The notes beneath the pieces are model-generated. The model saw only the letters and a program-made list of their open reading frames with translations. It did no database searches and was not told the DNA's origin. The translations under genes were made by a program, and so were the position numbers. Of a stretch of DNA of 64,000 bases, positions 2,656 to 59,297 are shown piece after piece. The stretch is from contig DYSU01000001.1 in assembly GCA_020726335.1 (NCBI GenBank), positions 26,183 through 90,182 on the forward strand. Reading direction: 5' to 3'. The stretch is from Thiomargarita sp. GTDB lineage: Bacteria; Pseudomonadota; Gammaproteobacteria; Beggiatoales; Beggiatoaceae. Each line of letters starts with the position of its first letter. Position 1 is the stretch's first letter.

Positions 2656-3336
2656 TCAGTTGATTTTTTCTGCAATGCGATTGGGTTCATCGGCGCGCAA
2701 ATAAGCCAATTCTTCATCGCTCAATTCCACATCGTCATAACCTGTGACCATCGGTTTGATATGGTCAATAAAAGAATGTCCTGTGGTCAGCAAATACACA
2801 TGGGCGATGACGAACATCACGATGGCGATGGCCGCAAAGGTGTGAACCGTGGCGATGCAGGCCGTGCAGTCAATGCCCAAACCGCTGATTAAATCTTTAA
2901 AACCAAAGCTGATGAGCAAATAGGCGATGCCTGAAATCCAAATGGCAGGAAATATCACGATTTTGACCAGCAAATAAGTCAAGGCTTGCAAGGGGTTATG
3001 TTTGCGCCTATAGGTTTTGATGTAAGGGTGGTGTTCACCGTGAAAAATGCCAAGCGCATAATAACGCGCCACTTGAATAAAATTTTTAGCGGTGGGCATA
3101 TAATGCCGCCATTCGCCTGTGGTAAACAGCCAAAAAGTGGCAAACGCCCAAATCAGCAATAAAATCAACGCTGCCCATGTGTGCAACATCACCGCCGTGT
3201 CAAAATGAATCCATTCATGCATGCCGTGAACCCTGAAACCTGTAAAAATCAAGGTAAAAATCAAGACCATTTGACTCCAATGCCAGAGTCTTTCAAAACG
3301 TTTGAAAACGTGTAACTTAACGATATGATTAGCCAT
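2656..3336 (-). CDS. b-type cytochrome membrane subunit paired with octaheme cytochrome
   Basis: An integral membrane protein of 226 residues with about four to five helices, resembling the cytochrome b561/hydrogenase b-subunit family that exchanges electrons with the quinone pool. Likely haem-ligand histidines lie in FERLWHWSQ (first helix), LHTWAALILL, and IAHVYLLTTGH near the end. The start is ATG 3336, with GGAG eight bases upstream; this overlaps the stop of the octaheme cytochrome gene by eight bases, which suggests translational coupling. Inference: it anchors the periplasmic octaheme protein and connects it to quinones. The direction of electron flow cannot be read from the sequence. 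Confidence 0.82.
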   Translation of the reverse strand: MANHIVKLHVFKRFERLWHWSQMVLIFTLIFTGFRVHGMHEWIHFDTAVMLHTWAALILLLIWAFATFWLFTTGEWRHYMPTAKNFIQVARYYALGIFHGEHHPYIKTYRRKHNPLQALTYLLVKIVIFPAIWISGIAYLLISFGFKDLISGLGIDCTACIATVHTFAAIAIVMFVIAHVYLLTTGHSFIDHIKPMVTGYDDVELSDEELAYLRADEPNRIAEKIN

Positions 3337-4996
3337 TTGTTTTTCTCCGACGCGTTGCAATTATCCGCAATGTACCGTGACCCAGCACACCGCCTAAAGT
3401 CCCGATTACAGCAAATAAACCGATTAAATCCAACCATTTATTGTCACCACGGGCGGGCAAATAAAAACCTGTCAACTGGCTGATTCGGCCATTTTTAGTG
3501 TGACATTGTTCACACGCCAACGCCTCTTCTTTGGGTGCAACCATGTGATTGATGGGCCAATACGAATACGTTTCAATAAAATCCCATTCGCCGCTGTAGG
3601 GGATGTTGTTTTTGGCCATGCCCGCTTTGATCGCTTTATCAAAACTGTAATTGCCCCACAAGGCGTTCTCATCTTCGCCCCATAAGTGCATGTAAACCAA
3701 GGTGTTATTGCCTTTGTCATAGGGTTGGACGGTGTTCATTTCTTTGAACGGATAAATTTTTGCGTCAGGGTTGTCATAAGAACCTGAAAATGAATTGATT
3801 TTTACGGGTTGCTTGGGGTCAAATTTAGTGTCAATCGTGGTGTAGTGCATGGTGCCATCAAACCATCCATACACAGGTTGCACATTTTCGCCATAAACAA
3901 ACGTGCCTTTGATGGATTTGTAGGTGTGGCGGTGTTCACCATTGCCTTGGGTATAGCCTTCGAGTTTGAAACCTTCGCCATTTTTCAACCGCCCCATGGT
4001 GCGCCAATCCCAAGCGACTTTGGTGGCTACGCCGCCACGGGCAATGGTGGGAATGTGACAGGTTTCGCAAGCAACTTTGGCCGTGTGGCTGTTGAGCTTG
4101 ATGCCTTTGATGCGGGTGAGCGGATGCGGTGTTGCGCTGTGACAACTGACACAAGTGGATGTTTCGCGTGGCATACCCGCTTTGGGCATGGTCTCTGATA
4201 AGGTCATTTGATAGCGACTGCCCGCCCATTCATGGGCTTCACCAACGTGACAGGTGACGCAGCTGTAGTTTTCCCCATCGGCACTCATATGCACATCCAC
4301 CGTTTTGGGTGGATTGAACAGCACCGAAGACAAATCACCGTGCTTCACGTTGTCACCAGCACCCCCATAAAAATGGCAATGGCCGCAGTTGTTGCGGCTG
4401 GGCAAGGTCACGCTTTGCGCCACTTTAGTCCAGTCAATCGGCGGTTTGCCTTTGAACATGACAGAGCAGGCGGTATCACCTGTGGTGGTGGGCGTTTTAT
4501 AATAAGTGCCTGTCGATTCATGACAAACCAAACAATCCATGTTTTCATGGTTGTCAAAATCAAAGTGGCTGTCCGTCATGTTATAGCCTGCGTGACACTG
4601 GGCGCATATGCCTTCATTGCCCAGCGCGTTGGTGCAAAAATTATTGATCAACACCGCTTTGCCCAAATGCTGTCCTGTTTTGGGGTGTTGATAATTCCAT
4701 GTCCAATGCTTGTTGTGTCTGAATTGATCCCCCGCTTTATTGTGACACTGCAAACACGCTTTGGTCACTTCAGGGCCGTTGGCAAACGGTTGTTGCAATT
4801 CTTTGAGTTGTGAATGGTCGGTTGTTGACTTGGATTTTAGCTTAAGTGGTTGTTTTAAAGGATGATTTTCATCAGTTTTTGCGTATTCGGAAATACCCAT
4901 TTCGATTTTATTCTCGCTGGCGACCGTGCCGAAGCTGAACAGCAACAGGAGAAAAATAAAACAGAAGTGTTTTGGACATCGTGGGCATGTGTTCAT
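3329..4996 (-). CDS. octaheme c-type cytochrome, tetrathionate reductase (Otr) family
   Basis: A 555-residue exported multiheme cytochrome. The start is ATG 4996, with GGAGG six bases upstream; it gives a clean signal peptide (hydrophobic FCFIFLLLLFSFG, then VASE). Eight CXXCH motifs are visible: CLQCH, CAQCH, CLVCH, CGHCH, CVTCH, CVSCH, CETCH and CEQCH. A C-terminal membrane helix (LIGLFAVIGTLGGVLGHG) probably anchors it. Order and spacing match the Otr family, whose members can reduce tetrathionate, nitrite or hydroxylamine in vitro; the physiological substrate here is unknown. After the second haem the sequence reads GYNMTD where I remember GYGWKD in relatives, so a lysine appears to be missing. 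The overlapping downstream gene encodes its likely membrane partner. Confidence 0.88.
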   Translation of the reverse strand: MNTCPRCPKHFCFIFLLLLFSFGTVASENKIEMGISEYAKTDENHPLKQPLKLKSKSTTDHSQLKELQQPFANGPEVTKACLQCHNKAGDQFRHNKHWTWNYQHPKTGQHLGKAVLINNFCTNALGNEGICAQCHAGYNMTDSHFDFDNHENMDCLVCHESTGTYYKTPTTTGDTACSVMFKGKPPIDWTKVAQSVTLPSRNNCGHCHFYGGAGDNVKHGDLSSVLFNPPKTVDVHMSADGENYSCVTCHVGEAHEWAGSRYQMTLSETMPKAGMPRETSTCVSCHSATPHPLTRIKGIKLNSHTAKVACETCHIPTIARGGVATKVAWDWRTMGRLKNGEGFKLEGYTQGNGEHRHTYKSIKGTFVYGENVQPVYGWFDGTMHYTTIDTKFDPKQPVKINSFSGSYDNPDAKIYPFKEMNTVQPYDKGNNTLVYMHLWGEDENALWGNYSFDKAIKAGMAKNNIPYSGEWDFIETYSYWPINHMVAPKEEALACEQCHTKNGRISQLTGFYLPARGDNKWLDLIGLFAVIGTLGGVLGHGTLRIIATRRRKTNG

Positions 4997-5142
4997 TGTC
5001 ATCCTCCATTGCATATTAATATAACATCGCTGAATTACAATTTTATTTTAATCCATCCAACTGAAAAATTGTGAGAAATTTTCGATAGGGCTTGTATGCT
5101 TGTTGCATCAGGGAGCGATACTTTTAACCTGACGACCTGCCC

Positions 5143-32249: not shown

Positions 32250-32280
32250 CGCAAAAAAAGCCACCTTCATAGAAGGTGGT
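32250..32280 (-). terminator. bidirectional hairpin terminator between methyltransferase and cytochrome pseudogene
   Basis: CCACCTTC (32261-32268) and GAAGGTGG (32272-32279) form a perfect eight-base stem with a three-base loop. The minus-strand side is followed by a run of T residues (from AAAAAAA at 32253-32259), so it is best placed to end the cytochrome transcript. Confidence 0.8.
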
Positions 32281-32297: not shown

Positions 32298-33576
32298 TTA
32301 TTTGGCGTAACGGGCTTTGAATTCATCCGCCGCTTTTTTGCGGGCTGCGCCTTCTTTTTCGTCCAATTTGCCTAAAAACCATTTGTGGTCATCGGTGCTT
32401 AACACTTTGTCAATGACTTGGCGTAAGTTTTTGGCTGCTTTGACTTTTTCAGGGTCTTTGGCTTCTAAATTGGCTTCAACCAGTTCTTCTAACGCGGGAA
32501 TCATTTCGGTGTAGAAATTTTTCGCCAAGTCATAAGTGCCGTGCCAATGGGTGTAATCAGGTCCCATCATTGATGCAGCGTGACGTACGCGCCGACCTTC
32601 GTGATGCCAGAGTTCAAACCAAACAAAATCCAATTTGGTTGAGAATTCAATCGGATTTTTCAAAGGTTTGGCCGCTTCCATCAATTCTTGACCGGGTTTG
32701 GCAAATTTATTGTTGTACAAGTCAATGATGCCGTCATATTGGATGTAAAACGCATCCACATATTCTTCATTATGGCAAGCGGCGCAGACATCACGCATGT
32801 TGGCGCGACGTTCTTCCCAATTGACTTTAGCCCCCTGCCAAGCCCATTTTTTCGTCTGATTTTTCAGGCCTTACAGACACAGGTGGGCGGTTGTTCCATG
32901 AAATGCGCATACCGACATCGTGGGTCACTTCTTGTTTGACGGTTGCACCCATGTGGCAAGTGGAGCAAGTGGGGGCTTCAAAATAATCTTCGCCCGGAAT
33001 CCATTTTTTACCATCTAAGCGCATTTGGTGTTTGTTGGCTTGGAAAGCAATGCCGTGTTTGGATTCGTTGACATTTAACACTTTCACTTCAGCACCATGG
33101 CATTGCCAGCAACCACTGACAGCGGCCGCTGAAACGCCTTCGGGAAAGCCTTATGTGACCAAACCACGGTTGCCTTCAATCACTTCAGCCAATAAGTTGT
33201 CTAAAGAACCGATGATACGACCCGCTTTGGCATGGTGTGATTCCGTCATTTGTTTGACTTCATTTTCATGACAATTGGCGCAGTCTTTGGGGGAAACAAT
33301 GATTGAAATATTGACTTTAAGGCTTTTGCCATCATGTTCAAAAGCATCTTTAGCCCCTTTGTCTGCTTTATGGCATTCATAACAACCCACTTTCGCACGG
33401 TAATGCGCACTGTCACCCCATTGTTATACAATGCCAGGCTCATGTTTTTTATGGCATTTAATACATTCTTTGGTTTCTTTAGAAAATGCAGTCGGTGCTT
33501 TATCAACCGAAGCCATGGCGACATGGCCTATCAGCAGGGCAAACCCCACCAATAACAACCTCCACTTAAGTTTCAT
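32298..33576 (-). pseudogene. broken hydroxylamine-oxidoreductase-like octaheme cytochrome
   Basis: The remains of a periplasmic multiheme cytochrome of the HAO-like (multi-haem, NrfA/HAO) group. Start ATG 33576 has GGAGAGA upstream and a good signal peptide (LLLVGFALLIGHVAMA). Read through, it has six CXXCH motifs: CIKCH, CYECH, CANCH, CWQCH, CSTCH and CAACH. Lesions: TAA at 33424-33426 (PGIV*QW), TAA at 33151-33153 (GLVT*GFPEG), and a frameshift in a G5 tract (plus 32831-32835) after which the frame must move by one to reach NMRDVCAACH. Between VKVL and NESKHGIAF (about 33060-33080) a segment seems deleted that in intact relatives carries the two missing haems. The 3' end (FELWHHEGRRVRHAASMMGPDYTHWHG) is well preserved. 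Sequencing error could explain one lesion, hardly all of them. Confidence 0.88.
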
Positions 33577-33753
33577 GGCCTCTCTCCTTTAGATGGCATA
33601 ATAAAATGAATTGAAACAGATTTGTCAATAAAGCGCAGTTTTTCACACTTTACCGCTAAAGCCTGTTTTATTATAACCAAACCAATAAAGATAAAACCCA
33701 TTTTCAACATTATTTCATTATCACTTTCTGTATTTTAATATATAAGCTAAAGT

Positions 33754-34212
33754 TTACTGAAAAACTTGGTCAGGATTTTTCATCTGCTGCAACAAATCTA
33801 GCTGAGAAGAACAGCCTTGTCGCTCAAACCATGCACTGATGTCATTATAATTTTTAAGCGTATTAGGCAATTGATTTACGCTTAATGTGCTAAAATTATC
33901 ACCGCTTTGAATTAAATAAGCCGCGTTTGAAAGCAACGGCATTTGTTTATTTGGCCAAACCAACACGTTTTGTTTGCTCGGCCAACGCAACCGCAATTTA
34001 CGTTGGTGTTTTCTATTGGTGATCAACAAAGCTTGTGGTTCAGACGCATCTGACCGCCACAAAGCCACTTGATGGCTGTGTTGATAACAAAAATCGCCTG
34101 TGCGCGTGACATCTATCATCCATAATCCGGGCCATTGGGCCATTTTCTCTGCCGCAGTGGCCGTGGATAAACAACACGCGCCACAAATTATGATTAATGC
34201 GTTTAATTTCAT
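33754..34212 (-). CDS. small secreted protein of unknown function
   Basis: A 152-residue protein I do not recognise. Start ATG 34212 (AAAGG upstream) gives a signal peptide ALIIICGACCLSTATAA, with likely cleavage before EKMAQ. The mature part has two cysteines (DFCYQH and QGCSS) that could form a disulfide, and a WPGLWMIDVTRTGDF segment. It is not a lipoprotein (the cysteines in the signal are not at a lipobox end). It lies between the cytochrome pseudogene and the divergent receiver-kinase gene. Confidence 0.72.
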   Translation of the reverse strand: MKLNALIIICGACCLSTATAAEKMAQWPGLWMIDVTRTGDFCYQHSHQVALWRSDASEPQALLITNRKHQRKLRLRWPSKQNVLVWPNKQMPLLSNAAYLIQSGDNFSTLSVNQLPNTLKNYNDISAWFERQGCSSQLDLLQQMKNPDQVFQ

Positions 34213-34402
34213 CGTTAAACCTTTTGAAACAGTTGATATTAAAGATTTTATCACTTATCTGGTTAAATAGAATCTAAAAAATTGATAATACGGGCCATTG
34301 TTCTCGCAAAACACCCACAAGCAATATCAATCCATGTTGGATGATGGTATCATTTACCCTCAAGCTTTTTTTAATAACCTGCGTGCAGCGACCCATGCCG
34401 TT

Positions 34403-58841: not shown

Positions 58842-59297
58842 ATGTTAGTCAAAGATGTGATGACCACATCCATTCGCACTACCACGGTGGACAGCAGTGT
58901 GTTGGAAGTGGCTTCATTAATGTGTTTGTATCGTTTAAGCGGGTTGCCTGTGGTCGATGACAACCACAAATTGATTGGCTTTATCGCTGAAAAAGACGTG
59001 TTGCATCATATGTTTCCCACGTTGGAAGATTTAATGGCAGGCAACATGGGTGCAATTGATTTGGATGCAATGATGGATAAATACGGTGAAATTTCAACGC
59101 TGAAAGTTTCTGATTTAATGACTAAAAATGTCATCACCGTGTCGCCCGACATGCACATTTTACGCGCCACCACCGTGATGGTGCGCAACCGTTTTCGCCG
59201 CATTCCTGTGGCTGAAAACGGTATTCTCAAAGGCATTTTGAGTTTGGGCGATGTCCACAAAGCGATTTTTCACCACAGCATTTCCAAAATTAAATAA
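58842..59297 (+). CDS. CBS-domain pair protein
   Basis: A 151-residue protein formed by two CBS domains: VKDVMTTSIRTTTVDSSVLEVASLMCLYRLSGLPVVDDNHKLIGFIAEKDVL and VSDLMTKNVITVSPDMHILRATTVMVRNRFRRIPVAENGILKGILSLGDVHKA. There is no other domain. CBS pairs bind adenine nucleotides or SAM and regulate partners. The partner is unknown. It lies between cca and ribD, six bases before ribD, so is probably expressed with it. AAAGGAG gives a strong ribosome site. Confidence 0.9.
   Translation: MLVKDVMTTSIRTTTVDSSVLEVASLMCLYRLSGLPVVDDNHKLIGFIAEKDVLHHMFPTLEDLMAGNMGAIDLDAMMDKYGEISTLKVSDLMTKNVITVSPDMHILRATTVMVRNRFRRIPVAENGILKGILSLGDVHKAIFHHSISKIK

Follow-up and report, generated by a model that had tools for sequence, protein, structure and literature searches.

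The stretch analysed here (the window) comprises 64,000 nucleotides of a contig from a Thiomargarita sp. of the family Beggiatoaceae (DYSU01000001.1). On its minus strand, at 33576–32298, lies the remnant of a multihaem cytochrome c gene that resembles those of hydroxylamine oxidoreductase (HAO), with leader and start codon in place at the 5′ end. Two TAA codons and one change of frame interrupt the single open reading frame typical of HAO-like octahaem cytochromes, and six CxxCH haem motifs are left of the eight that define the type, the fifth and sixth having been deleted. An earlier reading of the same letters (the original prediction) had anticipated much of this. Both in-frame TAA codons lie where it put them (33426–33424, codon 51; 33153–33151, codon 142), the coding frame does change after the G5 tract at 32835–32831, and the six haem motifs it counted are those found. 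The elements of the gene are given below, roughly in order of transcription.

32298–33576, minus strand: whole remnant, HAO-like octahaem cytochrome c pseudogene
33584–33590, minus strand: Shine–Dalgarno-like AAAGGAG upstream of the start codon, read from the sequence
33508–33576, minus strand: N-terminal hydrophobic, signal-peptide-like segment, judged by eye; aligns with the N termini of relatives
33451–33465, minus strand: haem motif 1, CIKCH
33424–33426, minus strand: premature TAA, codon 51 (Gln in 65 of 89 intact relatives)
33370–33384, minus strand: haem motif 2, CYECH
33268–33282, minus strand: haem motif 3, CANCH
33151–33153, minus strand: premature TAA, codon 142 (Glu in 39 and Pro in 26 of 89 intact relatives)
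33097–33111, minus strand: haem motif 4, CWQCH
33069–33073, minus strand: junction of an in-frame deletion of about 180 bp (haem motifs 5 and 6 gone)
32953–32967, minus strand: haem motif CSTCH, the seventh of eight in intact relatives
32831–32835, minus strand: G5 tract, site of the change of coding frame
32772–32786, minus strand: haem motif CAACH, the eighth of eight in intact relatives
32261–32279, minus strand: terminator-like hairpin with a T-rich tail, 3′ of the original stop

Downstream of the G5 tract the shifted frame is open as far as the original stop at 32298, and the codon-usage score agrees, being best in frame 0 to about 32837 and in frame 1 beyond. The deletion, which had been suspected at around 33060–33080, was mapped by querying the genome that contains the window with an intact relative (L112, genome G009). 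The match to residues 3–169 of this protein stops at contig base 59255 and that to residues 231–311 starts at 59251; 61 residues are thus represented by one codon, a loss of about 180 bp in frame. The missing haem motifs correspond to C195–H199 and C215–H219 of the intact relative. There is no copy of the deleted segment elsewhere in the window's genome, nor any second copy of the HAO-like gene in this assembly of 2.1 Mb and 97% completeness.

The remnant thus combines several independent disabling lesions with intact relatives and the lack of a second copy, as expected of a pseudogene. Its earliest truncated product would have 50 residues and a single haem motif, and cannot act as the enzyme. 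The predicted survival of signal peptide and C terminus is borne out by homology that runs from the leader to the C-terminal end (the signal-like segment itself being judged by eye), and the ribosome site was likewise recovered, as AAAGGAG. The predicted terminator is present as a hairpin at 32279–32261, although such sites are little more frequent in the region than in shuffled sequence (3 versus a mean of 2.1); promoter-like matches show no excess (2 versus a mean of 3.4). Open reading frames cover 94% of the window, and none of the seven neighbouring genes scanned is interrupted. When codon usage was scanned for other broken genes, over the window plus another 40 kb of the contig, 19 candidates emerged but the known pseudogene went unflagged at the thresholds used, which makes the scan uninformative. 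Searches of the plasmid collection by DNA gave no match for the pseudogene or for the window's first 25 kb.

Kinship with the orange octahaem cytochromes

The closest intact protein is encoded in G009/BB2 (L003) and shares 69% identity over 421 aligned residues, from leader to C terminus, a likeness that is not due to chance. The remnant is therefore homologous over its full length to HAO-like octahaem cytochromes c of the orange-cytochrome type, enzymes whose characteristic activities are nitrite reduction and hydroxylamine oxidation. In a tree of 34 rows hand-picked from 90, the window gene pairs with the G009 gene (support 92/85, below the starred level), adjoining the other orange-type genes of the family. 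The G009 gene is solitary: the 19.9 kb listed show no other multihaem gene as its neighbour.

True HAO carries a P460 haem with a tyrosine cross-link. Hydroxylamine oxidoreductase structures (PDB 1fgj, 4fas) share the region of haems 5–8 with the intact family by sequence (profile E about 1e-23), and the profile alignment to 4fas stops short of the C-terminal cross-link region, a site that bears on oxidative versus reductive type. Among solved structures, the best match to the intact family is the multihaem protein PDB 4qo5 (E 1.2e-69, profile A1), with HAO-type entries next; 4qo5 is the octahaem cytochrome of Ignicoccus hospitalis. It is only distantly related, and is not a pseudogene. No NCBIfam or Pfam model above cut-off names the pseudogene's family as HAO.

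A nearer reference is BOGUAY_0691, the orange octahaem cytochrome of the orange Guaymas Basin Beggiatoaceae, to which the remnant is homologous over its full length. Both BOGUAY_0691 primers, as published in PMC6449678, match locus L013 without mismatch, which places the Guaymas cytochrome in the pseudogene's group. The L013 gene, of this BOGUAY_0691 type, shares 60% identity with the window gene, occupies the same part of the tree and belongs to the same family; unlike BOGUAY_0691, the window gene is broken. Among titles and abstract openings on octahaem or HAO pseudogenes, on HAO in Beggiatoa and on Beggiatoaceae genome reduction, none mentions such a loss in this family.

Age and cause of the inactivation

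To date the loss, we compared the remnant with its intact relatives. The fetched loci hold 91 intact eight-motif reading frames, 89 of which were aligned once two repeats of the G009 gene had been removed. Membership required exactly eight motifs and the string WHHEG, leaving out intact variants such as L005, which also has eight motifs. Five loci that were mis-framed or partial in a first alignment (L006, L008, L011, L012 and L015) were dropped from the identity comparison; all of these except L012 are in the set of 89, correctly framed. Across that set 97 columns are identical in every relative. The window copy keeps 72 of 72 outside the deletion, the other 25 falling within it. At the 98% conservation level it keeps 82 of 82 columns (29 lost in the deletion), at 95% a departure is seen in 1 of 109 (39 lost) and at 90% in 5 of 144 (43 lost); the median number of departures at the 95% columns among the intact relatives themselves is also 1. 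The codon-position difference ratio (first plus second over twice the third) is 0.36–0.40 in five pairs that include the window gene versus 0.32–0.40 in five intact pairs. Conserved columns that are kept, together with normal codon-position differences, indicate that selection acted on the gene until recently.

We are therefore confident that this is a recently inactivated, single-copy HAO-like octahaem cytochrome c gene, of a type that recurs across the family to which the window belongs and in numerous bacteria outside it. The loss is ordinary in kind and concerns a known family; it is no new kind of system. Several points weigh against this reading. The lesions are known from an assembly without reads, so assembly or consensus error is formally possible, and a G-tract change is, by itself, a typical error of some sequencing chemistries. 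There is no second genome of the genus among those listed that could show fixation in the species. Finally, two nonsense and zero missense changes at universal columns represent a mild excess over neutral point mutation (P 0.03–0.08, varying with the columns used and with transition bias).

That excess offers weak support for a quick or favoured loss, in which an abundant octahaem protein would have been costly or harmful in its niche. Loss under selection is a variant of the preferred explanation, with overlapping confidence, and we regard it as rather unlikely. Several disabling lesions without missense change at universal columns would fit it, and so would the differing lesions in HAO-like genes of two other family genomes (described below) and the lack of any HAO-like match in 13 of the 41 other genomes, as against 28 with one. 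However, the nonsense excess is weak, the patchy presence is also consistent with neutral loss or gene transfer, and incomplete genomes inflate absences (two of the 13 are less than 65% complete).

Two other family genomes have HAO-like genes broken in different ways. That of G017 (L012 1200–1300, G017:C392) has an in-frame stop, a frame change and about 32 residues missing around haem motif 3, while the gene in G037, of the same genus, is intact. In G030 (L029 2680–2760, G030:C94) a gene of another subgroup carries a single frame change after haem motif 2 and otherwise shares 86% identity with an intact sibling in G013. Both are draft genomes whose lesions are possibly errors, and only part of the matching genomes was inspected for intactness. 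Loss of the gene may nevertheless be recurrent. That it has been driven repeatedly by selection across the family, with different fresh lesions in three lineages or more (G017, G030 and the window genome, the last in a cell that retains NapA, a cd1-type protein and NosZ), strikes us as unlikely. If it were true, specialised denitrifiers would be discarding an enzyme that burdens them, or one through which nitrite leaks away to ammonium or reactive intermediates escape.

A sequencing or assembly artefact, in which the organism's gene is intact and the contig wrong, is very doubtful. A one-base change in G-tract length is a common type of error, and this draft genome of 88 contigs has neither a same-genus genome nor reads for comparison. 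However, a single gene of 1.28 kb holds four lesions of three kinds, open frames cover the other parts of the 64-kb window, no universal column is altered in what is left of the gene, and the deleted segment occurs nowhere else in the genome.

We find it scarcely credible that the gene is expressed by recoding, through TAA read-through and frameshifting, as a six-haem variant with a function of its own. Full conservation of the universal columns outside the deletion, the ribosome site and the in-frame nature of the deletion would suit such a variant, but three separate recoding events would be required, TAA serves as a normal stop at other places in the window (including at this gene's own end), and the deletion takes 25 of the 97 universal columns, together with two haem sites, out of the core, a segment present in 89 of 89 relatives (a set chosen for eight motifs). 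An altered genetic code would not undo the frame change or the deletion, and TAA terminates ordinary genes here, so this reading was rejected.

Remaining nitrogen-cycle genes and the OTR locus

Elsewhere in the genome, NapA (1503.6 bits, cut-off 904) is encoded in an open frame and NapG is also present. A cytochrome cd1-domain protein (Cytochrom_D1, 478.7 bits) has one c-haem motif and is accompanied by a second D1-like protein; NosZ scores 882.7 bits (cut-off 625). NarG and NrfA have no match in this genome, and NirB and copper NirK only sub-threshold ones. Judged by gene content, NapA, the cd1-type protein and NosZ likely provide a route from nitrate to N2 (NorB was not searched for). The original prediction had proposed recent loss of an N-oxide or hydroxylamine redox function. 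Recent inactivation stands, while the loss is confined to this one enzyme, because the genes for NapA, the cd1-type protein, NosZ and an octahaem cytochrome of the OTR family remain open.

That OTR-family gene and its neighbour lie near the start of the window:

3329–5014, minus strand: intact OTR-family octahaem cytochrome (TIGR04315), no paralogue of the broken gene
2656–3360, minus strand: membrane protein of the cytochrome b561 type; its gene overlaps that of OTR

The octahaem cytochrome had been noted as a nearby intact gene at 3329–4996. It is indeed intact, with its coordinates corrected to 5014–3329, 28 kb away, and it belongs to the OTR family and is not a second HAO (TIGR04315, 573 bits, cut-off 375, profile positions 1–440 of 440). 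OTR proteins have eight haems, as do the pseudogene's intact relatives, but form a separate family; 16 matches over cut-off are spread over 15 of 42 family genomes. Reduction of nitrite and of hydroxylamine by OTR relatives is reported in PMC6449678, and the window's protein could, on its family membership, act on either. The overlapping cytochrome b561-type protein is its likely electron partner.

Under the explanation that we prefer, inactivation of a recently functional gene, a population living by NapA nitrate reduction and probable denitrification (cd1-type protein, NosZ) would no longer have needed the HAO-like enzyme. One lesion would have abolished it and the remaining ones would have accumulated without selection, with OTR perhaps still reducing nitrite or hydroxylamine afterwards. 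What the HAO-like cytochrome does physiologically in sulfur-oxidising filaments and their relatives is debated; in vitro the one protein has several activities. A relative that retains genes for nitrate reductase and NosZ after a fresh loss of this cytochrome serves as a natural knock-out, and could reveal the purpose of the enzyme. It also urges caution, as an HAO-like hit in a draft genome alone is no ground for calling ammonium production or hydroxylamine turnover.

Some minor features were observed alongside. With 2.1 Mb at 97% completeness, the genome (G000) ranks among the smallest of the family genomes listed, which span 2.1 to 8.8 Mb. At G000:C72:19526–23681 (L118 and L119) two cytochrome cd1-domain proteins are encoded in divergent orientation, and only one of them has a c-haem motif, an arrangement like that of nirS with nirF or nirN. 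Adjoining the pseudogene, window positions 33754–34254 encode a short protein with a leader-like stretch and no NCBIfam or Pfam match. Past the 440-position profile, the C terminus of the OTR-family protein has a hydrophobic stretch followed by basic residues, and the protein may be membrane-anchored.
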